Positions 28,156 through 48,104 of a DNA stretch of 64,000 bases are shown in pieces. Position 1 is the stretch's first letter. Each line of letters starts with the position of its first letter. Below the pieces are notes generated by a model. The model was not told the DNA's origin. It ran no database searches and saw nothing but the letters and a program-made list of their open reading frames with translations. The position numbers and the translations under genes are program-made. This stretch comes from Ideonella oryzae. Its GTDB lineage: Bacteria; Pseudomonadota; Gammaproteobacteria; Burkholderiales; Burkholderiaceae_C. The DNA lies in contig NZ_JAMXMC010000009.1 in assembly GCF_024055665.1 (NCBI RefSeq), positions 62,001 through 126,000 on the forward strand. The letters are read 5' to 3'.

Positions 28156-28593
28156 TCAGTGGTCGTGCTTGTCGTGACCATGCCCATGGCCATGTCCATG
28201 ACCGGGGCCGTCATCGTCATAGCCTCGTCCCGGCGGGCCGGGCGGGCGGTGGCCGCGTTCGTCATAGCGCTCGCGCACCCAGCCCTCCTGGACGAAGTAC
28301 ACGGGCTGCCCACAGGCGTTGTAGCGGCCGCAGTACTTGCGCCAGTTCTTCTGGTGGCCGGGGGGCACGTACAGATAGATCGGGCGACGCTGCACCACCA
28401 TCGGCCCGGGCGTGATGACCATCGGCTGGGCGTAGACCACCGGCGGCGGTGCCGTGTTGCCAATGTCGATGCGCCCATACACGCCGGGCTGCACCACGCT
28501 GATGGACACACCCACGTCGGTAGCATGGGCGGTCAGGGCGGCACCGGCCAAGGCGGCGGCACCCAGGAGGCGGAGGGGATGACTTCTGTTCAT
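28156..28593 (-). CDS. Secreted protein with histidine/glycine-rich tail
   Basis: 145 residues. The signal peptide MNRSHPLRLLGAAALAGAALTAHA is followed by DVGVSISVVQPGVYGRIDIG and VVQRRPIYLYVPPGHQKNWRKYC, a pattern common in uncharacterised Burkholderiales proteins. Two Cys (KYCGRYNACG) may pair. The last 17 residues alternate His and Gly (GHGHGHGHG, then DKHDH) and could bind Zn, Ni or Cu. No enzyme motif is visible. It probably shares an mRNA with the Nudix gene three bases on. Function unknown. Confidence 0.75.
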   Translation of the reverse strand: MNRSHPLRLLGAAALAGAALTAHATDVGVSISVVQPGVYGRIDIGNTAPPPVVYAQPMVITPGPMVVQRRPIYLYVPPGHQKNWRKYCGRYNACGQPVYFVQEGWVRERYDERGHRPPGPPGRGYDDDGPGHGHGHGHGHDKHDH

Positions 28594-28684
28594 GGTGGCA
28601 GTCTAGGCGCTCCGGCATCGGCTGTGATGTAGGACGCCATCCCGCCGCGGCGTCGGCTGCCGCGCCTGGACGGCCGGCCGGTCT

Positions 28685-29086
28685 TCAGCCCGTGCGGCGC
28701 GGACCATAGGGGCAGTGGCCCGGACGGGGCCCCACCTGAGGATGCTTGCGACAGGTGTCCGGCCGCTGCTCGTACACCGTGCAGCGCCGGGTCGTGGCAT
28801 CCAGAAACAGGCAGTCCCCGCTGGCGCGGCGCGCCAGCGTGAAGATGCCGTGCTTGAAGTTGAAGTGGTCGACCTGTCCCGCCTTCTCCAAGCGGCGGGC
28901 GATCTGCTTGGGCAACTCGTGCTCGGCCTCGAAAGGGTCCACCAAGCCCAGCCGCACCAGGTCCGGCAGACGCACCTCCACCGGCATGGTGCAGCAATGG
29001 GCATGGCAGCCGTCGCACAGGCCGGCACGGTAGCGCGTCCAGGTGTCGCAGCGGTCGACATCGACCCGGCGAAGCAGCATCGTCAT
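28685..29086 (-). CDS. YkgJ-type cysteine cluster protein
   Basis: 133 residues. Cysteines lie in LCDGCHAHCC near residue 23, GDCLFLDATTRRCTVYEQRPDTCRKHP near residue 90 and GHCPYGP near the end. This is the CxxCxxxCC...C...C pattern of the YkgJ (zinc/iron-chelating) family, thought to bind a metal or Fe-S centre. Start MTMLLRRVDV at 29086 is preferred; another ATG lies two codons in. Transcribed away from xdhC across a 138-base gap. Confidence 0.82.
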   Translation of the reverse strand: MTMLLRRVDVDRCDTWTRYRAGLCDGCHAHCCTMPVEVRLPDLVRLGLVDPFEAEHELPKQIARRLEKAGQVDHFNFKHGIFTLARRASGDCLFLDATTRRCTVYEQRPDTCRKHPQVGPRPGHCPYGPRRTG

Positions 29087-29224
29087 TCCATTCCAGGGCA
29101 AACCGGCAATGCACGCAATTTGCTTACAGAGCCGCTCAATCCGACAAGGTCCCCCCGCACACGCCGCCGGAAGAGCCCGGCAGCCCGGCCGCGGAACGAC
29201 CACCGGATCCGGATTGTAGAAATC

Positions 29225-30217
29225 ATGCACTTTCCCGACATTGCCGCCCTGCGCGCCGCCGTGGCCTGGCAGCAGGCCGGCCACCGCGTCGCGCTGGCCA
29301 CCGTCCTGAGCACCTGGGGCTCCGCACCCCGGCCGGTCGGCTCACTGCTGGTCATCCGCGACGATGGCCGCACCGAAGGGTCGGTTTCGGGCGGCTGCGT
29401 CGAGGACGACCTGGTCGACCACGCCCGGACCCGCATGGCCACGGCCGGCGCCCTGCCCGAGGTCCGTCAGTACGGCGTGGACACGGGGCAGGCCCGCCGC
29501 GCCGGCCTGCCCTGCGGAGGGCAGCTTGGCGTGCTGCTGGAACCCGACCCGCCCGCCGAGGCCATGCAAGACCTGTTGACCGCGCTGACCGGGGGCGAGC
29601 GGCGCATGCGGCGGGTGGACAGCCTCTCGGGCCAGTGGCTTTTGCTGCCGGCGATGGGTGTGGGCCAGCCCCTGCGCTGGGACGGCCGGCGCCTGACGCA
29701 GACCCTGGGCACGCAGTACCGCCTGCTGCTGATCGGTGCCAACCAGATCGCCGGCTACCTGGCCCCGATGGCGATGAGCTGCGGCTTCGCGGTGACCGTC
29801 TGCGACCCTCGCCCCGAGATGGAAGGTGACACCCTGCCGCCCCAGGTGGCGCTGCGGCGCGACATGCCCGACGACGCCACGCTGGCCTTCGCCCCCGATG
29901 CCCACAGCGCGGTGGTCACCCTCACCCACGACCCCAAGCTGGACGACCTGGCCCTGATGGAGGCACTGACCACCCCGGCCTTCCTGGTCGGTGCACTGGG
30001 TTCGCAGCGCAGCAACGACGCCCGCCGGGCCCGGCTGCGCGAGCACTTCGGCCTGAGCGTGGCCCAGCTGGCCCGGCTGCGCGGCCCGGTGGGGCTGCCG
30101 CTGGGCAGCAAACGCCCACCAGAAATCGCGGTCAGCATCCTGGCCCAACTGCTGGCGGAGAAGAACCGGCTGCTGGACCCCGCACCGGCCAGCGCCTGTG
30201 CCTCGGCGCTGACCTGA
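29225..30217 (+). CDS. xdhC: XdhC family molybdenum-cofactor insertion/maturation protein
   Basis: 330 residues. XdhC binds molybdenum cofactor, supports its sulfuration and delivers it to xanthine dehydrogenase-type hydroxylases. The N-terminal XdhC domain has STWGSAPRPVGSLLVIRDDGRTEGSVSGGCVEDDL, and the C-terminal NAD-binding-like domain has LLLIGANQIAGYLAPMA and FLVGALGSQRSNDARRARL. It is the first gene of the plus-strand island that ends with a molybdenum hydroxylase, its likely client. The stop overlaps the LysR start (TGATG). Confidence 0.9.
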   Translation: MHFPDIAALRAAVAWQQAGHRVALATVLSTWGSAPRPVGSLLVIRDDGRTEGSVSGGCVEDDLVDHARTRMATAGALPEVRQYGVDTGQARRAGLPCGGQLGVLLEPDPPAEAMQDLLTALTGGERRMRRVDSLSGQWLLLPAMGVGQPLRWDGRRLTQTLGTQYRLLLIGANQIAGYLAPMAMSCGFAVTVCDPRPEMEGDTLPPQVALRRDMPDDATLAFAPDAHSAVVTLTHDPKLDDLALMEALTTPAFLVGALGSQRSNDARRARLREHFGLSVAQLARLRGPVGLPLGSKRPPEIAVSILAQLLAEKNRLLDPAPASACASALT

Positions 30218-31293
30218 TGCCGATTCGGCAGCACGGCGCCGACGGTGATGCCGGGCCTGGCACGGCCTCTGCACGCGGCGCGGGCATGCACGTCCATGCC
30301 CGCGCCATCACCTACTTCGACATGATCCGCCGCAGCGGCTCGATCCGTGAGGCGGCCCGGCGCCTGCACGTGGCCTCCTCGGCGGTCAACCGGCAGCTGC
30401 TGCAGCTGGAAGGCGAGATCGGCACGCCGCTGTTCGAGCGCATGTCCACCGGGCTGCGGCTGACGCCGGCCGGCGAGGTCTTCTCGCGCCATGTCATCAC
30501 GGTGCTGCAGGACGAGCAGCGCCTGAAGACCGAGCTGGAGATGCTGCGCGGCGTGCGCCGTGGCGCGGTCAGCGTGGCCGCGGTGGAGGGCCTGAACGCC
30601 GACCTGATGCCGGCCGTGCTGACCCAGATGCACCGCCGCTACCCGACCATCCAGATCCAGGTGCGCACCTGCGGCTCGGAGCAGGCCGCGCAGGCGGTGA
30701 TCCAGGGCGAGGCCGACGTGGGCATCGGCTTCTCGATCCGCCGCCATGACAGCCTGCGCCAGTGCACGGTGGGCCGCTTCGCGCTGGGCGCCATCGTGCC
30801 GCCGGAACACCCCATTGCCCGCCTGAGCCGGGTGGACTTCGCCACCTGCGCCAGCTACCCGCTGATCCTGCCGGCGTCCGAGCTGTCCATGCACGGCCTG
30901 CTGCAGCCCATCATCGCCCACCACCGGCGCACCCTCCAGGTGCTACTGGAAACCTCCTCGATCGAGCTGGCCAAGAGCCTGGTGGAACGTGGCGTGGGCC
31001 TGTTCTTCCAGAGCCGGCTGGGCCTGGAGCGCGAACTGCGCGAGGGCCGCCTGGTGCACGTGCCGCTGGACACCCCCACGCCGCTGTGCTCGGAGCTGGG
31101 TGTCTATGTCCGCGCGGGCCGCACCCCACCCGCCGCCCTGGATGCCTTCAACCGCATCGTGGCCGAGGCCATCGAATGGCGCGAGGACGAGGAGCGTGTG
31201 GCGCTGCGCCTGCCACGCTCTGGTGCACAAGGCACCACCGACGGGCAGGCTGAGGCCGGCCACGCACCAGCGCAAGGCCATGGCTTGACCTGA
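30217..31293 (+). CDS. LysR-family regulator of the N-heterocycle island
   Basis: 358 residues. The winged helix-turn-helix is at about 30-85 (FDMIRRSGSIREAARRLHVASSAVNRQLLQLEGEIG) and an effector-binding domain follows. The ATG at 30217 overlaps the xdhC stop by one base. An ATG 23 codons later (MHVHARAITYFDM) would give the usual LysR length, so the true start may be 30286. The C-terminus extends about 30 residues past the normal end with a Gln/Gly/His-rich tail. The next gene is 126 bases on, which leaves room for a promoter that this protein could control. Confidence 0.87.
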   Translation: MPIRQHGADGDAGPGTASARGAGMHVHARAITYFDMIRRSGSIREAARRLHVASSAVNRQLLQLEGEIGTPLFERMSTGLRLTPAGEVFSRHVITVLQDEQRLKTELEMLRGVRRGAVSVAAVEGLNADLMPAVLTQMHRRYPTIQIQVRTCGSEQAAQAVIQGEADVGIGFSIRRHDSLRQCTVGRFALGAIVPPEHPIARLSRVDFATCASYPLILPASELSMHGLLQPIIAHHRRTLQVLLETSSIELAKSLVERGVGLFFQSRLGLERELREGRLVHVPLDTPTPLCSELGVYVRAGRTPPAALDAFNRIVAEAIEWREDEERVALRLPRSGAQGTTDGQAEAGHAPAQGHGLT

Positions 31294-31419
31294 GGCATGC
31301 AGCGGTCTCATTTCGGCATCACCCTGCGCCAAATTCAGTGCTATCCGACGCACAGACCGCTTCCTACACTGGTCCGCATTCCCCCGCTTCAGCGCCCCCC
31401 GCTCCCGCCTGTGACCCCC

Positions 31420-32391
31420 ATGCCTTCCGAGACCGCCCCCGCCTCCCCGGGCCTGCCGCTGATCGACATCCGCGGCCTGCGTGGCGCCGATCCGGTGGCC
31501 CAGCGTGCCGTGGCCGACCAGTTGCGCCAGGCCTGCCTGAACCACGGCTTCTTCTATGTCACCCACCACGGCATCGACGCGGCGCTGATCGCCCAGGTCT
31601 TTGCCGCCAGCCAGCGCTTCTTCGACCTGGGCATGGACGACAAGCTGGCGGTGGACAAGCGGCTCTCGCCCTGCAACCGCGGCTACGAGCCGCTGAAGGC
31701 GCAGACGCTCGAGAGCGGCGCCCCGCCGGATCTGAAGGAGAGCTTCTACATCGGTGCCGAGGTACCGCCCGACGACCCGCGCGTGCAGGCCGGTCGTTTC
31801 AACACCGGCCCCAACCAGTGGCCAGCGGCGCTGCCGGACTTCGCGCCGGTGATGACCCGCTACCATGCCGCCGCCCTGGCCCTGGGCGAGACCCTGATGC
31901 GCGGCCTGGCGCTGTCGCTGGACCTGCCGCCCGACCACTTTGACGCCTACCTGGAGGACCCGTCGGCCACGCTGCGTCTGCTGCACTACCCCCCGCAGCC
32001 GGCCAACCCCCAGCCCGGCGAGAAAGGCTGTGGCGCCCACACCGATTTCGGCGGCATCACCCTGCTGCTGCAGGACGACGCGGGCGGTCTGCAGGTCTGG
32101 GACAGCCAGCAACGCCACTGGATCGACGCCCCGCCGGTGCCCGGCGCCTTCGTGGTCAACATCGGTGACCTGCTGGCCCGCTGGACCAACGACCGCTACG
32201 TTTCCACCCTGCACCGGGTGATCAACCTCTCCGGCCGGGAGCGCTATTCGGTGCCCTTCTTCTTCACCGGCAACCTGCAGCACCGGGTGGAATGCCTGCC
32301 CACCTGCCTGGCCCCCGGAGAGGCGCCCAAGTACCCCGCCGTGACGGTGGAGGAACACCAGATCGCGTGCTACCGCCGCACCTACGGCTGA
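31420..32391 (+). CDS. 2-oxoglutarate/Fe(II) oxygenase, isopenicillin N synthase-like
   Basis: 323 residues. The N-terminal DIOX_N domain (LPLIDIRGLRG, ACLNHGFFYVTHHGID) and the C-terminal jelly-roll domain are complete. The iron triad is His-x-Asp in CGAHTDFGGITLLLQDD and the distal His in VSTLHRVINLSGRERYSVPFFF, where the Arg-x-Ser pair binds 2-oxoglutarate. Related enzymes hydroxylate, desaturate or demethylate small molecules. First gene after the LysR regulator and four bases before the hydrolase, so their reactions are probably consecutive. The start at 31420 was chosen over a GTG three codons earlier. Confidence 0.9.
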   Translation: MPSETAPASPGLPLIDIRGLRGADPVAQRAVADQLRQACLNHGFFYVTHHGIDAALIAQVFAASQRFFDLGMDDKLAVDKRLSPCNRGYEPLKAQTLESGAPPDLKESFYIGAEVPPDDPRVQAGRFNTGPNQWPAALPDFAPVMTRYHAAALALGETLMRGLALSLDLPPDHFDAYLEDPSATLRLLHYPPQPANPQPGEKGCGAHTDFGGITLLLQDDAGGLQVWDSQQRHWIDAPPVPGAFVVNIGDLLARWTNDRYVSTLHRVINLSGRERYSVPFFFTGNLQHRVECLPTCLAPGEAPKYPAVTVEEHQIACYRRTYG

Positions 32392-32395
32392 GCCC

Positions 32396-33175
32396 ATGCC
32401 CCACATCGTCCTGATCCACGGGGCCTGGCAGGGCCGCTGGGCCTTTGCCGCCTGGACCCCGATGCTCGAAGCCGCCGGCTGGACCGTGCACGCGGTGGAC
32501 CTGCCCGGCAACGATGCCCACCCCGAACGCGCCAGCGATGCCACGCTGGCGGGCTACACCCGGCATGTGGCCGACCTGCTGGAGCAGCTCGGCGAGCCGG
32601 CCGTGGTGCTGGGCCACAGCGGCGGCGGCATCACCGCCTCGCAGGTGGCGGAAGCCGCACCCGAGCGGGTGCGCGCACTGGTCTACCTGGCCGGCATGAT
32701 GCTGCCCAGCGGCGTGGGCTATGGCGATGTGATCGCCCAGTGCCAGGCCGCCGACCCCGGTTTCCACTACACCGGCATCGACCCCTTTCTGCAGTGGTCC
32801 GCCGACCGGCAGACCAGCTGGGTGCCGCCAGACGCCGGGGTGGCACTGTTTATGCACGACTGTCCGCCAGCAGCGGCACGGCAGGCCAGCCAGCGCCTGT
32901 GTGCCCAACCCGAAACCGGCCGCGTCATGCTCAACCAGCTCACCCCCGAACGCTTCGGCCGCATCCCGCGGATCTATGTGGAATGCCGGCAGGACCGCTC
33001 GGTCACGCTGCCGCTGCAACGCCGCATGCAAGCCCTCGTGCCGGGAGCCCACGGCATCAGCCTGGACTGCGGCCACGTGCCGCAGCTGGCCTGCCCCGAG
33101 GCCCTGACCCGCGCCCTGCTGCCGGCGCTGGACGGCCTGCCGATGCCCCCGCAGGCCCGCCCGGCCCGCGCCTGA
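32396..33175 (+). CDS. Alpha/beta-fold hydrolase (methylesterase/hydroxynitrile lyase-like)
   Basis: 259 residues. Oxyanion motif IHGAWQGRW near residue 8, nucleophile elbow GHSGGG near residue 82 (Ser), an acid in ECRQDRSVT near residue 200 and the catalytic His in DCGHVPQLACP. The fold and text resemble plant-type methylesterases and bacterial analogues. It is expected to cleave an ester, amide or lactone formed in the pathway of this island. Only four bases separate it from the oxygenase gene. Its C-terminus adds a short Pro/Arg-rich tail. Confidence 0.87.
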   Translation: MPHIVLIHGAWQGRWAFAAWTPMLEAAGWTVHAVDLPGNDAHPERASDATLAGYTRHVADLLEQLGEPAVVLGHSGGGITASQVAEAAPERVRALVYLAGMMLPSGVGYGDVIAQCQAADPGFHYTGIDPFLQWSADRQTSWVPPDAGVALFMHDCPPAAARQASQRLCAQPETGRVMLNQLTPERFGRIPRIYVECRQDRSVTLPLQRRMQALVPGAHGISLDCGHVPQLACPEALTRALLPALDGLPMPPQARPARA

Positions 33176-33224
33176 CGAATCCTCCCCACGCGTCCTTCCC
33201 TCCCCCGTTGTTCCAGGAGTTCCC

Positions 33225-34205
33225 ATGACCTTGCGTCCTCTTTTCGCCTCGCTGCTGTTGGCCGGATCGGCCGGTGCCATGGCCGCCGACACACTGACCG
33301 TGCAACTGGACTGGCTGCCTGGCGGCGACAAGTCCTTCGTCTATGCCGGCGTGCAGGAAGGCTTCTTCAAGGCCGAAGGGCTGGACGTGAAGATCGTGCC
33401 GGGCCGCGGCTCGTCCGATGCGGTGACCAAGATCGGTGCCGGCGCGGCCGATGTCGGCTTCGGTGGCATCTCGGCACTGATGATGGCCGCCGCCGAAAGC
33501 GGCGTGCCGGTCAAGGCGGTGATGTCGCTGTACTCCAAGGGACCGGATGCGCTGTTCACCCGCGCCGACACCAAGATCAAGAGCCTCAAGGACGTCGAGG
33601 GCAAGACGGTGGCCATGCCCACCTTCTCCTCGTCCAACCAGCTCTGGCCGGTGGTGCTGCAGAAGAACGGCGTGGACCCGGAGAAGGTCAAGATCATCAA
33701 GGCCGACCCCGCCACGCTGGCCCCGATGCTGGCCCAGGGCCGGGTCGACGCCACGATCAACTGGGTCACCGTGGCCCCGGGCTTCTCCAGTGTGCTCAAG
33801 CAGGCCGGCAAGGAGCTGCATGTGCTGCCCTGGTCGCAGTTCGGTCTGGACGGCTATGGCTGGTCGGTGATGGCCAGCGACAAGACCATCAAGGAACGCC
33901 CGGAGGTGCTCAAGCGCTACCTGAAGGCCCTCAACAAGTCACTGGCCTTCGCGATCCAGAACCCTCAGAAGGCCGCCGAGGACCTGAAGGCCCAGGTGCC
34001 CGAGACCGACGTGGCCGTGGCCAAGGCCGAGTTCGAGGCCTCGATCCCGCTGCTGCAAAACGAGATCAGCAAGCGTGACGGCATAGGCCGCTTCGAACCC
34101 AAGCTGCTGGGCGAGACCTGGCAGTGGGTGGCCAAGTCCATGAACTATGCGCCGACCAAGGTCGATCCGGAAAAGCTGGTCGACCGCAGCTTCCTGGCCA
34201 AGTAA
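33225..34205 (+). CDS. ABC transporter substrate-binding protein, THI5/NMT1-like
   Basis: 326 residues with a signal peptide ending GAMA|AD. The mature start LTVQLDWLPGGDKSFVYAGVQEGFFKAEGLDVKIVPGRGSSD is the THI5/NMT1/ThiY pattern found in binding proteins for pyrimidine precursors, riboflavin, sulfonates and nitrate. It should hold the imported compound in the periplasm and pass it to the ATPase/permease pair that follows. The ring-binding style of this family fits an aromatic N-heterocycle, which is inference. Confidence 0.88.
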   Translation: MTLRPLFASLLLAGSAGAMAADTLTVQLDWLPGGDKSFVYAGVQEGFFKAEGLDVKIVPGRGSSDAVTKIGAGAADVGFGGISALMMAAAESGVPVKAVMSLYSKGPDALFTRADTKIKSLKDVEGKTVAMPTFSSSNQLWPVVLQKNGVDPEKVKIIKADPATLAPMLAQGRVDATINWVTVAPGFSSVLKQAGKELHVLPWSQFGLDGYGWSVMASDKTIKERPEVLKRYLKALNKSLAFAIQNPQKAAEDLKAQVPETDVAVAKAEFEASIPLLQNEISKRDGIGRFEPKLLGETWQWVAKSMNYAPTKVDPEKLVDRSFLAK

Positions 34206-34218
34206 GGCGGGTGGACGG

Positions 34219-35004
34219 ATGCCTGCAGCCCCTTCCCCGGTCATCGACCTGAACGCGGTCACGCAGACCTTCGTCTCCAGCGACGGCAGCCCGGTCACCG
34301 CGCTGCAGGACGTGGACCTGCGCCTGCGCCGGCACGAGTTCGTCTCGCTGATCGGGCCATCGGGCTGCGGCAAGTCCACCATCCTGCGGCTCATCGCCGG
34401 GCTGCTGCGCCCCACCTCCGGCGAGGTCCGCATCTTCGACCTGCCGGTGACCGAGCCGCGCGACGAGATCGGCATGGTGTTCCAGAAGCCCACGCTGCTG
34501 CCCTGGCTGAGCGTGCTGGACAACATCACTTTCCCGATGAAGCACAAGTACGGCCGGGTCGACGAGAAGGATCTGGTGCGGGCGCGCGAGCTGCTGGCGA
34601 TGATCGGCCTGCAGGACTTCGGCCACAAGCGGCCCGACGAGCTCTCGGGCGGCATGCAGCAGCGGGTGTCCATCGCCCGTTCGCTGCTGCACGACCCCGA
34701 GATCCTGCTGATGGACGAGCCCTTCTCGGCGCTGGATGCGCTCACCCGGGACGAGATGAGCTTCGAGCTGCTGCGCATCTGGAACGAGCGGCCCAAGACC
34801 GTGGTCTTCGTCACCCATTCGATCCAGGAGGCCCTGCTGCTGTCCGACCGCATCGTCGTGATGAGCGCCCGCCCGGGCCGGGTGGCCGACATCATCGACG
34901 TGCCATTGGCGCGCCCGCGCACGCTGGCCACGCTGGCCGATCCGCGGTTCACGCAGATGGCCAACGACATCCGCGTGCAGGTCTTCAGCCGAAAACCCGA
35001 ATGA
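34219..35004 (+). CDS. ABC transporter ATP-binding protein (TauB/SsuB/ThiZ-like)
   Basis: 261 residues. Walker A GPSGCGKST, Q-loop VFQKPTLLPW, signature LSGGMQQRV, Walker B ILLMDEPFSALD and H-loop VTHS are all intact. It powers import together with the binding protein (13 bases upstream) and the permease (7 bases downstream). The start at 34219 gives MPAAPSPVIDLNAVTQTF, which fits the family. Confidence 0.93.
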   Translation: MPAAPSPVIDLNAVTQTFVSSDGSPVTALQDVDLRLRRHEFVSLIGPSGCGKSTILRLIAGLLRPTSGEVRIFDLPVTEPRDEIGMVFQKPTLLPWLSVLDNITFPMKHKYGRVDEKDLVRARELLAMIGLQDFGHKRPDELSGGMQQRVSIARSLLHDPEILLMDEPFSALDALTRDEMSFELLRIWNERPKTVVFVTHSIQEALLLSDRIVVMSARPGRVADIIDVPLARPRTLATLADPRFTQMANDIRVQVFSRKPE

Positions 35005-35011
35005 GGCCGCC

Positions 35012-35773
35012 ATGCCCGCCCTGCTGCAACGCCACGTCTCGCTGATCGTCTTCCTGGGGGTGCTGGCCGGCTGGGAAGCGGCCTGCCGCCTCTTCGCCCT
35101 GCCTGAGTACATCCTGCCCGCGCCCAGCGCCATCGGGCATGCCGCGCTGGAGTTGGGCCCCGGCCGCTGGCTGGACCACCTGGGCGCCACGCTCTCGGTG
35201 GCCCTGGCCGGCTACGCGCTGGCCATCGCGCTGGCCCTGCCACTGGCGGTGGCCATCACCCGCTCGGCCCTGCTGTCGCGCATCGTCATGCCCTGGCTGG
35301 TGGTGATCCAGTCCACCCCCATCGTCGCCATCGCGCCGATCATCGTCGTCACGCTGGGCGCCGGCGTGCTGCCGCGCGTGGTCATCACCACACTGATCTC
35401 CTTCTTCCCGCTGGTGGTCTCCACCGCACTGGGCCTGTCCTCGGTGCCCGCCGAGCTGATCGAGCTCTCCCGCTCGCTGCGCGCCACCGACGCCCGGCAG
35501 TACTGGCAGATCCGCATGCCCTTTGCCGTGCCCTATGTGTTCTCGGCGCTGAAGGTGTCGATCACGCTGTCGGTGGTCGGCGCGGTGGTGGCCGAGTTCG
35601 TGGCCGCCGAGAAGGGCCTGGGCTACCTGATCCTGTTTGCCACCTCGTCCTTCAAGGTGCCGGTGGCCTTCGCCGCGCTGATCCTGCTGGTGCTGTGCAG
35701 CCTGACGCTCTACGGCATCGTCCAGCTGCTGCACCGGCGACTGTTCCCCTGGAGCCAGCAGGCGCAGTCCTGA
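35012..35773 (+). CDS. ABC transporter permease (BPD type)
   Basis: 253 residues with about six membrane helices. The coupling EAA loop reads ELIELSRSLRATDARQYWQIRMP, and GAVVAEFVAAEKGLGYLI is typical of the TauC/SsuC/ThiX group. It probably works as a homodimer because no second permease gene is present. It lies in the operon between the ATPase and the deaminase. Confidence 0.92.
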   Translation: MPALLQRHVSLIVFLGVLAGWEAACRLFALPEYILPAPSAIGHAALELGPGRWLDHLGATLSVALAGYALAIALALPLAVAITRSALLSRIVMPWLVVIQSTPIVAIAPIIVVTLGAGVLPRVVITTLISFFPLVVSTALGLSSVPAELIELSRSLRATDARQYWQIRMPFAVPYVFSALKVSITLSVVGAVVAEFVAAEKGLGYLILFATSSFKVPVAFAALILLVLCSLTLYGIVQLLHRRLFPWSQQAQS

Positions 35774-35808
35774 GCCTGGCGCCGCCCCTACCTTCTCCGA
35801 GCCCAGCC

Positions 35809-36324
35809 ATGACCGCCCCGACCCCGCTGCCCGCCCAGGGCCTGTCCCCCAGCACCGAGCAGATCCACCGCCACCTGCGCCATGCCCAGCGCGTGGCCGA
35901 GCGGGCGGTGGCCCTGGGCCACCACCCGTTCGGCGCGATCCTGGTCGGGCCGGACCAGGAGACGGTGCTGCAGGAGCAGTGCAACATCGACAGCGTCAAC
36001 CACGCCGAGTCGACCCTGGCGCGGGTGGCCGCCACCAACTTCACGCCCGAGTTCCTGTGGGGCTGCACGCTCTACACCACGGTGGAGCCCTGCTGCATGT
36101 GCGCCGGCACCGCCTACTGGGCCAACATCGGCCGCGTGGTCTTCGGCATGACCGAGGCCGCGCTGCTGGCGCACACCGGCAGCCATGCCGAGAACCCGAC
36201 GATGAGCGTGTCCTCGCGCTATGTGTACGACCACGGCCAGAAGCCGGTCGAGCTGATCGGCCCGGTGCCCGAACTGGAAGCCGAGTTCGCCGCGCAGCAG
36301 CAGCGGTTCTGGGCCAGCCGCTGA
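35809..36324 (+). CDS. Zinc-dependent nucleobase/nucleoside deaminase (CDA fold)
   Basis: 171 residues. Zinc and proton-shuttle motif VNHAEST (His-Ala-Glu) and the second zinc motif PCCMCAGT (PCxxC) are intact, as in guanine deaminase GuaD, TadA and related enzymes. An upstream HHPFGAILVG segment binds the base. Hydrolytic removal of an exocyclic amino group from a purine, pterin or pyrimidine-like ring is expected; the exact ring cannot be read. The start at 35809 is 36 bases after the permease stop. The FAD subunit gene follows after 15 bases. Confidence 0.88.
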   Translation: MTAPTPLPAQGLSPSTEQIHRHLRHAQRVAERAVALGHHPFGAILVGPDQETVLQEQCNIDSVNHAESTLARVAATNFTPEFLWGCTLYTTVEPCCMCAGTAYWANIGRVVFGMTEAALLAHTGSHAENPTMSVSSRYVYDHGQKPVELIGPVPELEAEFAAQQQRFWASR

Positions 36325-36339
36325 CGGCCTGAGGCCACG

Positions 36340-37125
36340 ATGGACCTCGTCACCCCGCCCAGCCCGCAAGCCGCCCAGGCCCTGGCCGACCGGCTGGGGC
36401 CGCGCGCCTGTTTCATCGCCGGTGGCACGGTGCTGCAACAGGGCTGGGACGAACCACGCCTGGCGCCGGACGGCGTCTGCTTCATCAACCTGCAGACCTG
36501 GCCCGAGACCCAGCAGATCACACTGGACGACCACCACCTGCACATCGGTGCCGGCGCGCGGCTGGAGACGGTGCGCACCGACCCGCGGGTGCGCGCCCAG
36601 GCCCCGCTGCTCAGCGAAGCGCTGGGCCAGCTGGGCGCCCTGGGCGTGCGCCGCCTGGGCACGCTGGGCGGCAACGTGGGCTGGGGCGTGGGTGACACCG
36701 GCCCGGTGCTGCTGGTGCTGGACGCCGAAGCCCGGCTGGCCGACGGCTCGCATGCGCCCCTGGTGGAGGTGCTGCAGCGCACGGTGCTGCCGCTTCTGCT
36801 GGGCTTTCGCCTGCCGCGGGCCGACCATCACCCCGTGCACACGGCCTTCGAGAAGGTGGGCTACCGGGCCGCCTTCTCCCCCGCCCGGGTGCGGGTGGCC
36901 TTGCGCTGGGCCCGGCCCGAGCGCGGCCTGAGCCTGCTGCGCGCCGCCGCCGGGGCGCCGGGCACCCCCATCCGCCGCCTGACGGACGTCGAGGCCCTGC
37001 TGGGCCAGCCGGGCGCCGCGACGCCCGACCTGGCCGCGGTGCGCCGCGCCTGCCAGGCCCATCTGCCCGCCGAGCTGGCCCTGATGGTCAGCCGCCTGAT
37101 CGCCGGCCACTGCGGCCTGCTCTGA
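36340..37125 (+). CDS. Molybdenum hydroxylase FAD-binding (medium) subunit
   Basis: 261 residues. FAD-binding motifs are FIAGGTVLQQGW near residue 27 and RRLGTLGGNVGWGVGDTGP near residue 105. A short C-terminal CO-dehydrogenase flavoprotein-like domain follows. No extra Fe-S insertion of the 4-hydroxybenzoyl-CoA reductase type is seen. It passes electrons from the Fe-S subunit to an acceptor (NAD+ or other). It is the first of the three hydroxylase subunits, in the order FAD, Mo, Fe-S. Confidence 0.88.
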   Translation: MDLVTPPSPQAAQALADRLGPRACFIAGGTVLQQGWDEPRLAPDGVCFINLQTWPETQQITLDDHHLHIGAGARLETVRTDPRVRAQAPLLSEALGQLGALGVRRLGTLGGNVGWGVGDTGPVLLVLDAEARLADGSHAPLVEVLQRTVLPLLLGFRLPRADHHPVHTAFEKVGYRAAFSPARVRVALRWARPERGLSLLRAAAGAPGTPIRRLTDVEALLGQPGAATPDLAAVRRACQAHLPAELALMVSRLIAGHCGLL

Positions 37126-37136
37126 CCCGCCCGGCC

Positions 37137-39422
37137 ATGCCTTCCTCCTTCGACACTCCGCACCAGCTGCTGCGACCGGCAGAGCATCTGCCCACCGACA
37201 TCCGGCCGGACGCCACCGCCAAGCTCGGCGGCCAGCCCGGCTTCCTGACCGACCGCATCGTGCCCGGCCAGCTGCGCGGGCTGATCCTGGGCAGCCCGCA
37301 TCCGCATGCGCGCATCCTGCGCATCGACTGCTCAGCCGCCCGCGCCCTGCCCGGCGCGGTGGCGGTGCTGACCCATGCCGACATCCCCGGCGTGGCCGAC
37401 TACGGCCTGCGCAAGGTGGACCGGCCGGTGCTGTGCCGCGACAAGGTGCGCTACGTGGGCGACCCGGTGGCCGCCATCGCCGCGGTGGACCTGGCCACCG
37501 CCTACGCGGCGCGGGAGTTGATCCGCGTGGACTACGAGAGCCTGCCGCTGGTCGACGACCCCGCCGCCGCGCTGGCCCCGGACCTGCCCCCCGAAGCCTG
37601 GGTGCATGCCGGCGGCAACCTGCTGCACGCGGTGCAGCACGCCCACGGCGACTGGGCCGCCGCCGAGGCTGCCACCGTGCACTGGGTGGAAGACCGCTAC
37701 ACCACGCCGCGCCAGATGCACGCCTTCCTGGAGACCGAGGGCGGCGTGGCCGAGCCGGATGGCCAGGGCGGGCTGCGCCTGTTCTTTGGCGGCCACAACC
37801 CCGTGCGCGAAGCCCAGGTCATCGCCGACCTGCTGGCCCTGCCGCGCGAGAAGGTGCATGCCACCGGCACGCCGGTGGGCGGCTCCTACGGCGGCAAGGA
37901 CGAGCTGACCGTGCAACCCATCGCCGCGCTGCTGGCCTGGGCCACGCAACAGCCGGTGCGGCTGCACCTGAGCCGGCCGCAATCGACCGACTTCGGCGTC
38001 AAGCGCCACCCGATGCGCATCCGCATGCGCACCGGCTGCGACGCGGCCGGCCGGCTGACGGTGCACGACGTGGACATCCTGGCCGACACCGGCGCCTACG
38101 CCACCCATGGCCCCGAGGTGCTGGACGCCGCGGTCGAACACGCGCCCGGCCCCTACCGCCACCAGGCGGTGCAGATCAACGCCCGCCTGGCCTACACCAA
38201 CAACGGCGTGGCCGGCGCCTTCCGCGGCTTTGGTGCGGTGCAGGTGCAGTACGCGCTGGAGCAGCAGATGGACCGGCTGGCCGCCCGGGTGGGCCTGGCG
38301 CCGGACGCCTTCCGTGCCCTGAACCTGGTGGCCCCCACCGACCCGGGCCCGCTGGGCCAGCAGGTCGTGCCCTTCGACGGCCCGCAGCGCGCGCTGGACG
38401 TGGCCCGCCAGCAGCCGCTGTGGCGTGACAACCCGCACCACTGGCGCAGTGCCGACGGCCGCTACCGCCACGGCATCGGCCTGGCCCTGGTGCACCGCAG
38501 CGACGGCTTCGGCAAGAACGGCCCCAGCGCCAGCCGCATGACCCTGGCCCTGGCCGAGGACGGCGCGATCGAGCTGCGCACCAGCTTCACCGAGCTGGGC
38601 CAGAACCTGGTGGGCGCCATCCGCGCCACCTGCGTCGATCAACTGGGCTGCGGCCCCGACGAGGTGCGCCCGGTGCTGGGCGACACCCGGCGTGCGCCCG
38701 ATTCCGGCCCGGTGGCCGCATCGCGTGCCACCACGCTGGTCTGGCGGGCGGTGACCCAGGCCCGCCCGGCCTGGCAAGCGGCGCTGCTTGGGGCCGCGGC
38801 CGCGCAGTTGCAGGTGGACGCGCACACCCTGCGCCTGGGCCCCGGCGGTGTGCACGACGGCCAGGGCCTGCGCCTGAGCCATGCGGCCCTGGCCCAAACC
38901 CTGGGCCGCGATCGCCCGACGCTGTGCATCGAACTGCCGCCCGAGGACCCTGCCGGCAACGCGCCCGACGTGCATTTCGTGTTCGGCGCCTGTGCCGCGG
39001 TGGCCCAGGTGGTGGTGGACAGCTGGAGCGGCATGGTGCGGGTGGAGAAGCTGGTGATGTGCACCGCCCTGGGCCCGGTGGTGACGCCGCAGGGCTACCT
39101 GGGCCAGATGGAAGGCGGCGCCGTGATGGGCCTGGCCATGGCCACGCAGGAGGACCTGCGCTGCGAAGGCGGCCACTACACCGCCCGCAACCTGGACGCC
39201 TACCTGGTGCCCACGCTGGCCGACGCCCCCGAGATGGACCTGATCGCGATCCAGAACCTGCCCGAGGGCGACCCGATCGGCCCGCGCGGCGCGGGCGAGA
39301 TCAGCGTCAACTTCGCCACACCGGCGGTGGCCAATGCGCTGGCGGCCGCGCTGCAGCAGCCGATCACCCGGTTGCCGGTGCTGCCGGCACAGGTCATTGC
39401 CCTCCTGGAGCAGACCGCATGA
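37137..39422 (+). CDS. Molybdenum hydroxylase large subunit (xanthine dehydrogenase family)
   Basis: 761 residues, usual for a separate molybdopterin subunit. The active-site loop GGSYGGKDELT puts Asp255 where bovine xanthine oxidase has Glu802, Arg363 (AFRGFGAVQ) matches Arg880 and the catalytic Glu is Glu721 in GAGEISVN. The enzyme should hydroxylate a carbon next to a ring nitrogen using water. The Glu-to-Asp change suggests a substrate other than xanthine or a shifted binding mode. Its stop overlaps the Fe-S subunit start (ATGA). XdhC at 29.2 kb is its likely maturation factor. Confidence 0.9.
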   Translation: MPSSFDTPHQLLRPAEHLPTDIRPDATAKLGGQPGFLTDRIVPGQLRGLILGSPHPHARILRIDCSAARALPGAVAVLTHADIPGVADYGLRKVDRPVLCRDKVRYVGDPVAAIAAVDLATAYAARELIRVDYESLPLVDDPAAALAPDLPPEAWVHAGGNLLHAVQHAHGDWAAAEAATVHWVEDRYTTPRQMHAFLETEGGVAEPDGQGGLRLFFGGHNPVREAQVIADLLALPREKVHATGTPVGGSYGGKDELTVQPIAALLAWATQQPVRLHLSRPQSTDFGVKRHPMRIRMRTGCDAAGRLTVHDVDILADTGAYATHGPEVLDAAVEHAPGPYRHQAVQINARLAYTNNGVAGAFRGFGAVQVQYALEQQMDRLAARVGLAPDAFRALNLVAPTDPGPLGQQVVPFDGPQRALDVARQQPLWRDNPHHWRSADGRYRHGIGLALVHRSDGFGKNGPSASRMTLALAEDGAIELRTSFTELGQNLVGAIRATCVDQLGCGPDEVRPVLGDTRRAPDSGPVAASRATTLVWRAVTQARPAWQAALLGAAAAQLQVDAHTLRLGPGGVHDGQGLRLSHAALAQTLGRDRPTLCIELPPEDPAGNAPDVHFVFGACAAVAQVVVDSWSGMVRVEKLVMCTALGPVVTPQGYLGQMEGGAVMGLAMATQEDLRCEGGHYTARNLDAYLVPTLADAPEMDLIAIQNLPEGDPIGPRGAGEISVNFATPAVANALAAALQQPITRLPVLPAQVIALLEQTA

Positions 39423-39907
39423 ACGACACCGCCTCGCCCAAGGGACAGATCACCGTCACGCTCCAGCTCAATGGCCACCCGGTGCAGGTGGACTGCCGTC
39501 CCGACACCCGGCTGCTGACGCTGTTGCGCGAGCACTGGGGCCTGACCGGCGCCAAACCCGGCTGTGAGGTGGGCCGCTGCGGCGCCTGCATGGTGTGGCT
39601 GGACGATGCGCCAGCCAATGCCTGCCTGCTGATGGCCTACCAGCTCGAAGGGCGCGCGGTACGCACCATTGAATCGGTGGCGGCCGACCCGGCCAGCCTG
39701 CCGGTGCGGCAGGCGCTGGCCGAATGCGGCGGTGTGCAGTGCGGCTACTGCAGCGCCGGCATGGTGATGACCATGAGCCATCTGGCGGGCCTGCAGCCCC
39801 GGCCCTCGCTGGCCGAGGCCGAGGCCCTGATGTGCGGCAACATTTGCCGCTGCACCGGCTACGGCGGCATCCGCCGCGCGCTGGTGCGGGTGTTCGACGC
39901 TCAGTGA
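39419..39907 (+). CDS. Molybdenum hydroxylase [2Fe-2S] small subunit
   Basis: 162 residues. The plant-type cluster motif is CEVGRCGACMVWLDDAPANAC near residue 43. The second, hydroxylase-specific cluster is CGGVQCGYCSAGM and CGNICRCTGYGGI. Length and order match XdhC-like/CoxS small subunits. It starts in a four-base overlap with the large subunit. It ends seven bases into the convergent cytochrome gene, so the two transcripts overlap at their 3' ends. Confidence 0.93.
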   Translation: MNDTASPKGQITVTLQLNGHPVQVDCRPDTRLLTLLREHWGLTGAKPGCEVGRCGACMVWLDDAPANACLLMAYQLEGRAVRTIESVAADPASLPVRQALAECGGVQCGYCSAGMVMTMSHLAGLQPRPSLAEAEALMCGNICRCTGYGGIRRALVRVFDAQ

Positions 39908-40476
39908 GCGTCGCGCCCGGGCAGCAGCATCGACTTCAGCACGCCGTCCTTCAGCACCACGTGGTGGTAGATGGCGGCCGCAGCGTGGGCACCGGCCAGC
40001 CACAGGATCGCGTCACCCAGAAAGCCATGCACTTCGCCCCAGTCGGCCGCCTCGGCCAGCGGGCTGTTGGCGATGAAGGGCATCTGATCGACGCGCAAGC
40101 CACCCAGCAGGGTCAGCGGGTGGCCTTCGCTGCCCAGGGCCAGCAGTGCGGTGATGGGCAGCAGCAGCATCAGCAGCCACAGGACGTCCTGCAACATGCG
40201 AGCGGCGCGCTGCATCCAGGGGTTCATGTCGAAGCGGGGGGCGGCAGGCCGCAGGGCGACCCAGACCAGGCGCAGCAGCGTCAGCACGAAGACCGAGACG
40301 CCTAGGCTCTCGTGCCAGACGATGTCCCAGCGGGTGGCCGGGTCCAGGCCATCGCGCATCAGGCGGCCGAAGTGTTCCGGCCCCAGGATGAAGGCCGCCA
40401 CGATGACGATGGCGGTCAGCCAGTGGAAGGCCCGACTGACGGGGTCGAAATGCTGGGTCGAAGAGGCAGAGGTCAT
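39901..40476 (-). CDS. Cytochrome b561-like membrane protein
   Basis: 191 residues with four membrane helices. Heme-ligand candidates are in RAFHWLTA, VWHESLGV, VHGFLGD and IYHHVVLKDGVLKSMLLPGR, close to the b561 at 26.6 kb in layout. It carries electrons between quinol and an unknown acceptor. The start at 40476 (MTSASSTQHF) is preferred; an ATG 13 codons earlier is possible. Convergent with the hydroxylase Fe-S gene. The end-overlap does not imply a shared function. Confidence 0.85.
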   Translation of the reverse strand: MTSASSTQHFDPVSRAFHWLTAIVIVAAFILGPEHFGRLMRDGLDPATRWDIVWHESLGVSVFVLTLLRLVWVALRPAAPRFDMNPWMQRAARMLQDVLWLLMLLLPITALLALGSEGHPLTLLGGLRVDQMPFIANSPLAEAADWGEVHGFLGDAILWLAGAHAAAAIYHHVVLKDGVLKSMLLPGRDAH

Positions 40477-40560
40477 GGCCGGCAGGGCCGCCACAGCGGC
40501 AGCAGAGGAGAACACGGCGCGATTGTCTCCCCGTCCGCCCGCGCCGAGGTATCTGCCAGC

Positions 40561-41391
40561 TTAACCAAAGCTGAAGGCCGACAAGGTGGTCTCCATGACC
40601 CGGTCGGAGAAGGCCTTGCGGCCCCGGTCCTCGCCCGCGGCACCGGCCACCACCATCAGTGGCAGCAGGTGCTCCTCGGCGCGCGGCGGATGGCACCAGC
40701 GGGCCATCGGGGCTTCGGCCCAGGCGGTCAGCGCGGCATCGCGCTCGGCGGCCGGGGCCTCCGCCGCTTCGGTCAACCAGTCGTCGAAGGTGTCGGACAC
40801 CGGACCGAAGCGCGGGTCGCCATAGCCCCGCATGTTGTGGAAGCTCATGCCACTGCCCACGATCAGCACGCCCTCGTCACGCAGGGGTTGCAGCGCCCGG
40901 CCCAGCGCCAGGTGGGCGGCCGGATCCAGCGAGACGTTCAGCGAGAGCTGCACGACCGGGATGTCGGCCTGCGGCACCATCAGCATCAGCGGGATGAACA
41001 TGCCGTGGTCGAAGCCACGCCGCGCGTCGATGTGCGAGGACAGGCCCGCCTGCCCCAGCAGGGTGGTGATGCGCTCGGCCAGGGCCGGCTCGCCCGGTGC
41101 CGGGTACTTCAGCTCGTAGGTGTGCGGCGGGAAGCCGTAGTAGTCGTAGATCTGCTCGGGCTGCGCGCCCCCGGTGACGGCGAAGTCGCCCTCCAGCCAG
41201 TGGGCTGACACCATCACGATGGCGCGGGGCCGCTGCGGCAGGCTCTCGACGATGCCGCGCAGGTAGGCCGCCGTCTTGTCCCAGGCGTGTGGCGGGTTCC
41301 AGTCCATGAAGAAGCAGGGGCCACCGCCGTGCGGGATGTACACGGTGGGCAGGCGGCCCGGGGTGGTGGAAGCAATGTGTTCGGTGCTCAT
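40561..41391 (-). CDS. Class III extradiol dioxygenase, DODA/YgiD type
   Basis: 276 residues. Typical 4,5-DOPA dioxygenase motifs include TVYIPHGGGPCFFMD (first His), VSAHWLEGDFAVT (second His), RGFDHGMFIPL and GSGMSFHNMRGYG (third His). It should cleave catechol-like rings next to the hydroxyls using Fe(II) or Zn(II). Last gene of the six-gene operon reading from 44887 down; its ATG overlaps the LLM stop by four bases. Similar dioxygenases detoxify quinol compounds. Confidence 0.9.
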   Translation of the reverse strand: MSTEHIASTTPGRLPTVYIPHGGGPCFFMDWNPPHAWDKTAAYLRGIVESLPQRPRAIVMVSAHWLEGDFAVTGGAQPEQIYDYYGFPPHTYELKYPAPGEPALAERITTLLGQAGLSSHIDARRGFDHGMFIPLMLMVPQADIPVVQLSLNVSLDPAAHLALGRALQPLRDEGVLIVGSGMSFHNMRGYGDPRFGPVSDTFDDWLTEAAEAPAAERDAALTAWAEAPMARWCHPPRAEEHLLPLMVVAGAAGEDRGRKAFSDRVMETTLSAFSFG

Positions 41392-48028: not shown

Positions 48029-48104
48029 TGGTGGCCTGGGGCGGAATCGAACCACCGACACGCGGATTTTCAATCCGCTGCTCTACCAACTGAGCTACCA
48101 GGCC
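48029..48104 (-). tRNA. tRNA-Phe (anticodon GAA)
   Basis: 76 bases on the minus strand. Acceptor stem GGCCTGG pairs with CCAGGCC, the D-loop is AGCTCAGTTGGTAGAGC, and the anticodon stem-loop GCGGATTGAAAATCCGC gives anticodon GAA. The T-loop is GGTTCGATTCC, and the 3' CCA is encoded. It lies downstream of the ntrX-like gene and has its own likely promoter inside the end of that gene. Confidence 0.97.

Follow-up and report, generated by a model that had tools for sequence, protein, structure and literature searches.

What does an array of eleven genes in Ideonella oryzae take up and break down? The genes occupy positions 29225-39907 (+ strand) of the window, a 64,000-nucleotide stretch of contig NZ_JAMXMC010000009.1 (positions 62,001 to 126,000; assembly GCF_024055665.1). 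In order, they encode an XdhC-type maturation factor, a LysR-type regulator, an Fe(II)/2-oxoglutarate (2OG) oxygenase resembling isopenicillin N synthase (IPNS), an alpha/beta hydrolase, the binding protein, ATPase and permease of an ATP-binding cassette (ABC) importer, a zinc deaminase, and the flavin adenine dinucleotide (FAD), molybdenum (Mo) and 2Fe-2S subunits of a Mo-hydroxylase. The cluster is a conserved and linked set of genes, associated with purine catabolism. With a probability of about 0.7, we regard it as a LysR-controlled, patchily distributed purine-oxidation cluster for a guanine-type, perhaps modified, purine; its substrates, the order of its reactions and the signal for LysR are what we infer. 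Below, G, C and L denote genomes, contigs and loci.

Composition and conservation of the cluster

The eleven genes are co-directional. Counted from starts at 30286 for LysR and 31420 for the oxygenase, neighbouring genes lie -4 to 126 bases apart (Table 1). If the alternative ATGs at 30217 (LysR) and 31297 (oxygenase) are used, two gaps become shorter. A preliminary description of this DNA had reported a tightly spaced one-strand array of these families, and all of this was borne out by open reading frames (ORFs), Pfam and NCBIfam. The overlapping start and stop codons it mentioned were seen where the Mo-subunit and Fe-S genes share 4 bases (39419-39422), and between xdhC and LysR at 30217 with the upstream LysR start. 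Ratios of nonsynonymous to synonymous substitution (dN/dS) against Ideonella benzenivorans (L009), the nearest relative compared, were 0.08-0.31 across all 11 genes, as expected under purifying selection.

A scan of GTDB genomes for the deaminase left 80 loci of 97 relatives, and the whole cluster was present in eight of them: Ideonella benzenivorans, Cupriavidus campinensis, Verticiella sediminum, Stutzerimonas azotifigens, Variovorax sp. dw_308, Corticibacter populi, Lampropedia cohaerens and L. puyangensis. An oxygenase search in 399 genomes of the window's order yielded a ninth relative (L184, genome G073). The ten genes from LysR to the Fe-S subunit kept their order in seven of the nine. 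In S. azotifigens (L020) the deaminase has moved to after the Fe-S gene, and in C. campinensis a contig end directly after the FAD gene cuts the cluster. LysR stands immediately before the oxygenase in all nine relatives, as well as in the partial cluster L185 described below, and the oxygenase and the hydrolase are present in all nine. The ATPase is 79-97% and the permease 71-92% identical across the relatives. The least conserved member is xdhC, adjacent upstream in one relative (L009) and downstream in one more (L053). The eleven-gene cluster is a conserved unit, more than chance would give.

The patchy scatter over families, which reaches into the gammaproteobacterium Stutzerimonas, suggests that the cluster spread by horizontal transfer, as do several genes resembling recombinases and transposases (identified by eye) after the cluster in Variovorax dw_308 (L026:14000-20500).

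The binding protein and the Mo-hydroxylase travel together. Among the 399 genomes, the Mo subunit (E <= 1e-150) was found in four and the binding protein (E <= 1e-60) in five; each of the four Mo-subunit genomes also encodes the binding protein, no more than 4 kb away on that contig (Fisher p 5e-9 for co-occurrence). In the fifth binding-protein genome (G225), both lie at a contig edge (L272), so that linkage is 5/5.

Table 1 Genes of the cluster in the window and the domain models that identify them.
Gene product	Position	Strand	Evidence
XdhC/CoxI-type Mo-hydroxylase maturation factor (xdhC)	29225..30217	+	Pfam XdhC_CoxI, XdhC_C; dN/dS 0.23 vs L009
LysR-type regulator	30286..31293	+	Pfam HTH_1, LysR_substrate
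IPNS-like Fe(II)/2-oxoglutarate oxygenase	31420..32391	+	Pfam DIOX_N, 2OG-FeII_Oxy
Alpha/beta hydrolase	32396..33175	+	Pfam Abhydrolase_6
NMT1/THI5-type periplasmic binding protein, ABC importer	33225..34205	+	Pfam NMT1
ABC ATPase of importer	34219..35004	+	NCBIfam ntrCD and taurine-type ATPase models, below cut-off
ABC permease of importer	35012..35773	+	Pfam BPD_transp_1
Zinc nucleobase deaminase, cytidine deaminase (CDA) fold	35809..36324	+	Pfam dCMP_cyt_deam_1
FAD subunit, Mo-hydroxylase	36340..37125	+	Pfam FAD_binding_5
Molybdopterin subunit, Mo-hydroxylase	37137..39422	+	Pfam Ald_Xan_dh_C, MoCoBD_1, MoCoBD_2
2Fe-2S subunit, Mo-hydroxylase	39419..39907	+	Pfam Fer2, Fer2_2

In I. benzenivorans, a MobA-like nucleotidyltransferase gene (NTP_transf_3; L009:2761-3417) is divergent from xdhC. 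None was seen in the ORF list at the matching place of the window (28.6-29.2 kb), and by gene-list reading a similar-looking gene lies behind the Fe-S gene in the Lampropedia copies. Elsewhere in the window, a tRNA gene at 48032-48104 (- strand; Rfam RF00005, 71 bits) is the sole Rfam match at gathering score.

Purine genes around the cluster and in its genomes

In Verticiella (G003, L017), the Mo-subunit gene of the cluster (C5:275212) is flanked by hpxO (C5:262654, 65% identity) on one side and by uraD (C5:282383) with an adjoining uraH (Pfam Transthyretin) on the other; this stretch of ~21 kb also holds a Rieske gene, a pair of xanthine riboswitches and a second NMT1-type ABC system. The riboswitches form a divergent pair (L017:2893-3084), one before an oxygenase paralogue and the other before a binding protein and a deaminase of another type (39%). 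The UraD encoded here (L017:17308-19113) is fused to an M20-type peptidase domain (OHCU_decarbox and Peptidase_M20), and the uraD of the window genome is of similar length and 60% identical. In S. azotifigens (L020), BMP-type ABC genes and an 8-oxoguanine deaminase (NCBIfam 708 bits, cut-off 532) lie downstream of the cluster, and upstream there is an NCS2-like fragment, a weak match with 42% identity over a short stretch at the locus end.

Five plasmid-borne relatives of the deaminase were fetched, four of them annotated (65-72% identity). Three adjoin an NCS2 nucleobase symporter (Pandoraea, Erwinia, Pantoea), and the fourth, from Acinetobacter (L090), lies inside a urate/hpx locus. The BMP-type family, whose L028 member is 54% identical to the Acinetobacter one, occurs in 17 of the 80 deaminase loci.

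Partial clusters show which genes separate; three of them (L270, L271 and L272) belong to the five genomes that have the binding protein. The importer and the Mo-hydroxylase occur without the deaminase, oxygenase, hydrolase or LysR alongside in L271, and with the deaminase in L272, where the contig begins within the binding-protein gene and the genome's best oxygenase is only 43% identical. L270 combines the importer, whose binding protein is 38% identical, with a convergent Mo-hydroxylase and an amidohydrolase that shares 58% identity with the one of the Acinetobacter urate locus. Conversely, in L185 (G270) LysR, oxygenase and hydrolase are accompanied by Rieske genes of the VanA_C type and a binding protein of the BMP type, which take the place of the importer and the Mo-hydroxylase. 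From L270-L272 and the L185 trio we read two modules, one that imports, deaminates and hydroxylates, and a separable accessory one of LysR, oxygenase and hydrolase. The VanA_C domain of the L185 Rieske protein was rejected as a sign of demethylation, because it was present in all seven purine-linked Rieske proteins scanned, L185's included.

Xanthine riboswitches provide a further link. According to the excerpted text of Yu and Breaker 2020 (PMC7373994), this riboswitch (NMT1 motif, RF03054) controls pcbC genes for IPNS-like oxygenases, NMT1/tauA genes, amidohydrolase genes and, rarely, tadA genes; oxygenase, NMT1-type and tadA-like genes are described all together once, in Hydrogenophaga intermedia. 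The genes are shut off by xanthine and urate. In our data, RF03054 was over cut-off in 13 of the 399 genomes and in none of 14 control genomes. Twelve of the 13 were followed up, leaving out G134 and also the second riboswitch of G173. Within 3 kb of the riboswitch, an oxygenase homologue was found in eight of the twelve, a deaminase homologue in six and a binding-protein homologue in nine, counts that stand without a matched control. Half of the eight oxygenases were of the nearer kind (43-47%), and the other four only of the distant kind (32-36%), a separate tree branch. The matches to the binding protein share 26-31% identity, a likeness of superfamily level. The window genome has its own riboswitch away from the cluster (G000:C28:124150-124222; L252:10150, - strand, RF03054, 50 bits), preceding a distant oxygenase paralogue (36%).

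The window genome also has a second purine region of ~36 kb (contig C2, 130-167 kb; L253, L094). It contains BMP-type ABC genes, two amidohydrolase genes (one an 8-oxoguanine deaminase over cut-off), and a canonical xdhB that passes its cut-off and has xdhA- and xdhC-like neighbours. It also contains puuD, a uraH-like gene, uraD, an M20 hydrolase gene, another NMT1-type ABC system and a deaminase gene whose product is 60% identical to that of the window. One further gene there is presumably ureD. Canonical XdhB was over cut-off in seven of nine cluster genomes (the window's and those of eight relatives, leaving out G073), and not in Verticiella (G003) or L. puyangensis (G008). UraD together with PuuD or a 65-66% identical HpxO was found in 16 of 16 genomes, a set that takes in two Caballeronia genomes with only the distant oxygenase (G014, G015) and again leaves out G073. 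With a known urate oxidiser and UraD in every genome checked, the cluster would add to the urate pathway and not replace it.

Enzymes, candidate route and rival explanations

The Mo-hydroxylase has the Puc/Xdh-type layout, with FAD, Mo and 2Fe-2S on separate subunits. The best NCBIfam models were pucC for the FAD subunit (107 bits, cut-off 306, not reached) and pucD for the Mo subunit (607 bits, cut-off 784, not reached); the canonical XdhB model TIGR02965 gave the Mo subunit about 238-239 bits and was not passed (cut-off 849.5).

The deaminase carries the zinc motif HAE and PCxxC. E67, P94, C95 and C98 were invariant in 37 sequences, and H65 was replaced by Asn in one only. In that sequence, from Comamonas aquatica (L012:10001-10516), the replaced residue is the zinc-binding His of HAE, and the enzyme may be inactive or changed. 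A structural model (predicted local distance difference test, pLDDT, 93.3) had Msmeg3575 as its nearest solved fold, followed by guanosine, tRNA and guanine deaminases; profile comparison matched TadA best, over about the first 107 positions. Msmeg3575 was also nearest by sequence, and the solved guanine deaminases were not closest by sequence or by fold. As Msmeg3575 was solved with ammeline and 5-azacytosine, the fold does not set the ring system of the substrate.

The oxygenase retains its iron triad and the RxS motif for 2OG (H207, D209, H265, R275 and S277, invariant in 14 sequences). Its model (pLDDT 88.0) matched an ancestral ethylene-forming enzyme (EFE), SpoC, 6jyv, TropC and thymine 7-hydroxylase. 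In the oxygenase tree the cluster clade (support 1.0, L185 included) joins a purine- and riboswitch-rich clade at 0.912, the latter itself having a support of 0.616. The tree contains duplicates (L248 repeats the oxygenase of L259, L250 that of L252, L266 that of the window and L267 that of L184), and L248, L249 and L250 are marked N (no purine marker) though they come from loci of riboswitch hits. In the hydrolase, S75, D200 and H227 were invariant in 10 sequences, with triad roles assigned by motif position, and its PDB relatives are a pyrethroid hydrolase, SABP2 and hydroxynitrile lyases. PDB relatives of the binding protein are 4nmy, 3ix1 and THI5, pyrimidine-precursor proteins among them.

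Conservation and families support the preliminary description in its proposal of a single catabolic cluster that imports, deaminates and, with molybdenum, hydroxylates an N-heterocycle bearing an amino group; of its candidate substrates (pterins, purines and pyrimidine vitamin precursors), the neighbourhoods described above narrow the choice to purines. In the route that we favour, the NMT1-type importer would take up guanine or a substituted relative, and the CDA-fold deaminase would strip the exocyclic amino group to give a xanthine-level compound. Hydroxylation by the puc-like Mo-hydroxylase, matured by XdhC, would then bring the ring to the urate level, for entry into the genome's own urate pathway (PuuD or HpxO, UraH, UraD), encoded elsewhere. 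Riboswitch-linked genes of this kind are turned off by xanthine and urate, which would place the oxygenase upstream of xanthine; the oxygenase and hydrolase would act at the xanthine level or earlier, most likely by trimming a substituent from the purine. The sequence proposed in the preliminary description, with Fe(II)-dependent oxidation and hydrolysis as the final reactions, gained no support from these findings.

Several findings weigh against this interpretation. The existing xdhB-puuD-uraD region of the window genome, with its deaminase paralogue, would make plain guanine use redundant. The gene set that the preliminary description would have traced across genomes is kept in nine relatives, but purine genes were recognised by gene-list reading in the flanks of only two (L017, L020). 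The cluster is not shown by 72 of the 80 deaminase loci, some of which are short contigs, and no purine gene was recognised at the deaminase in seven non-cluster loci read from gene lists (L010, L012, L013, L019, L029, L035, L047). Separate loci for the homologues, which the preliminary description had counted against itself, are thus the rule for the deaminase, whereas the binding protein and the Mo-hydroxylase stay together. No RF03054 match in the window reached the gathering score, and a search of 28500-40600 that allowed hits up to E 5 was also empty; the idea of the cluster as a riboswitch-controlled operon was rejected since none lies upstream. Purine markers were near 12 of 40 oxygenase homologues versus 2 of 13 control stretches; the difference was not significant (p 0.26), and purine enrichment around all oxygenase homologues was rejected. 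Among the controls, one stretch happened to hit a puuD locus and another a BMP gene. Markers were near 8 of 12 homologues with at least 46% identity versus 4 of 28 below (p 0.002), with a threshold picked after the data were seen. The label "no purine marker", here and in the tree, partly reflects short loci and a reach of 8-9 kb. Finally, two residues present in 7 of 7 canonical XdhB proteins, Glu and Arg, are Asp and Ala in all nine cluster Mo subunits. We take these positions to be 802 and 880 of the bovine enzyme, with a role in purine binding. E. coli XdhA, itself only putative, likewise lacks Glu and Arg, so that Asp and Ala neither prove nor exclude xanthine, and these residues were dropped as proof of another substrate.

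That the cluster is a second, ordinary guanine-to-urate route with other kinetics, its oxygenase and hydrolase having side functions, is possible, though we would not expect it. The annotated plasmid deaminases next to nucleobase symporters or urate genes fit such redundancy, and in Verticiella and L. puyangensis, with no canonical XdhB over cut-off, the enzyme of the cluster could serve as the principal xanthine dehydrogenase. However, canonical XdhB exists in the other seven cluster genomes, and in Verticiella the Rieske gene beside hpxO could hydroxylate xanthine. Redundancy would also leave the presence of oxygenase and hydrolase in all nine relatives, the Mo active site unlike that of canonical XdhB, and a deaminase fold nearest to Msmeg3575 to be accounted for.

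A tentative and rather unlikely alternative is that the pathway serves a modified purine, such as guanine or xanthine carrying an N-methyl group and derived from RNA turnover or from plants. Here the oxygenase would take off the substituent, either ahead of deamination or following it, and ring hydroxylation would fall to the Mo enzyme. The coexisting canonical XdhB and the altered Mo site are consistent with it, as is the resemblance of the oxygenase to thymine 7-hydroxylase, a nucleobase oxygenase. Control in which xanthine and urate shut the genes down fits enzymes that act ahead of xanthine (PMC7373994, excerpted text), and caffeine dehydrogenase, a trimeric Mo enzyme, is described as oxidising caffeine at C8 (PMC4408171, excerpted text). 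The Rieske proteins, on the other hand, give no pointer to demethylation, as VanA_C is common to all seven.

Catabolism of a pterin, of a cytosine- or 5-azacytosine-like compound, of an s-triazine or of the thiamine pyrimidine appears improbable. It would suit the NMT1/THI5 family of the binding protein, the pyrimidine-precursor proteins among that protein's PDB relatives, and the ligands of Msmeg3575. The purine links of the neighbourhoods speak against it, and gene-list reading, which is not a profile scan, turned up no gene for pterin, thiamine or pyrimidine metabolism next to the nine relatives. The NMT1/THI5 annotation, moreover, is called misleading in the excerpted text of PMC7373994.

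A new urate-opening route, in which the oxygenase and hydrolase would substitute for urate oxidase and hydroxyisourate hydrolase, is very improbable: the two genes do share a cluster with a purine-type hydroxylase, but the oxygenase was rejected as a urate oxidase stand-in because PuuD or HpxO is present, with UraD, in every one of the 16 genomes, and four loci (L067, L068, L072, L073) have an oxygenase relative by the deaminase and no hydrolase match.

Relation to known systems and meaning of the cluster

Several known systems share parts of the cluster. The curated models best matched by its FAD and Mo subunits belong to the puc genes (PucCDE xanthine dehydrogenase), of an organism that we take to be Bacillus subtilis. 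The likeness comes from models, not from B. subtilis sequences, and the cluster differs in its scores below cut-off and in its linkage to importer, oxygenase and hydrolase. A relative of the deaminase lies in the hpxO-uraD-uraH locus of the Acinetobacter plasmid, and the Verticiella cluster itself sits in an hpx-type locus; such urate loci are also described for Klebsiella in the excerpted text of PMC7373994. Rieske genes are present in the Acinetobacter locus, and nothing in it matches the cluster's oxygenase, hydrolase or Mo-hydroxylase.

The xanthine-riboswitch operons of PMC7373994 resemble the cluster in their IPNS-like oxygenase (pcbC), NMT1/tauA-type binding proteins and tadA-like deaminases. 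Unlike them, the cluster has no riboswitch, and it includes LysR, an alpha/beta hydrolase and a Mo-hydroxylase of three subunits; the excerpted text names no Mo-hydroxylase. The C8-oxidation cluster for caffeine of Pseudomonas sp. CBB1 (cdhABC, tmuM; PMC4408171) is likened here by description and not by sequence: a trimeric Mo-hydroxylase acts at purine C8 and feeds a urate-like pathway, as proposed for the present cluster, whereas the excerpted text names no deaminase, importer, IPNS-like oxygenase or alpha/beta hydrolase.

The word "undescribed" in the preliminary description therefore holds in part. No paper describing the exact gene set was found in literature searches, not all of which were aimed at the set. 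On the other side, IPNS-like oxygenases, NMT1-type proteins and, rarely, tadA-like deaminases were already linked, by way of xanthine riboswitches, to the oxidation of purines (PMC7373994, excerpted text), and trimeric Mo-hydroxylases of the puc, xdh and cdh kind were already known. The kind of system is known from comparative work; the arrangement with LysR and a Mo-hydroxylase is new.

For the oxygenase family, the excerpted text of PMC7373994 gives no function as established in 2020, and none was found in our literature searches. In the compact cluster, a relative of these riboswitch-linked oxygenases is tied to import, to a deaminase and a hydrolase, and to a Mo-hydroxylase. The purine-oxidation reading that we prefer would explain why several genomes have a second, different purine-type hydroxylase beside the canonical one. 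More speculatively, and in our view unlikely, the cluster may be dedicated to the salvage of modified purines such as methylated guanines from RNA turnover: the IPNS-like oxygenase would trim the substituent, the hydrolase would complete its release, and the deaminase and the altered Mo-hydroxylase would bring the product to the urate level. If true, this would give a function to the oxygenase family found under xanthine riboswitches.

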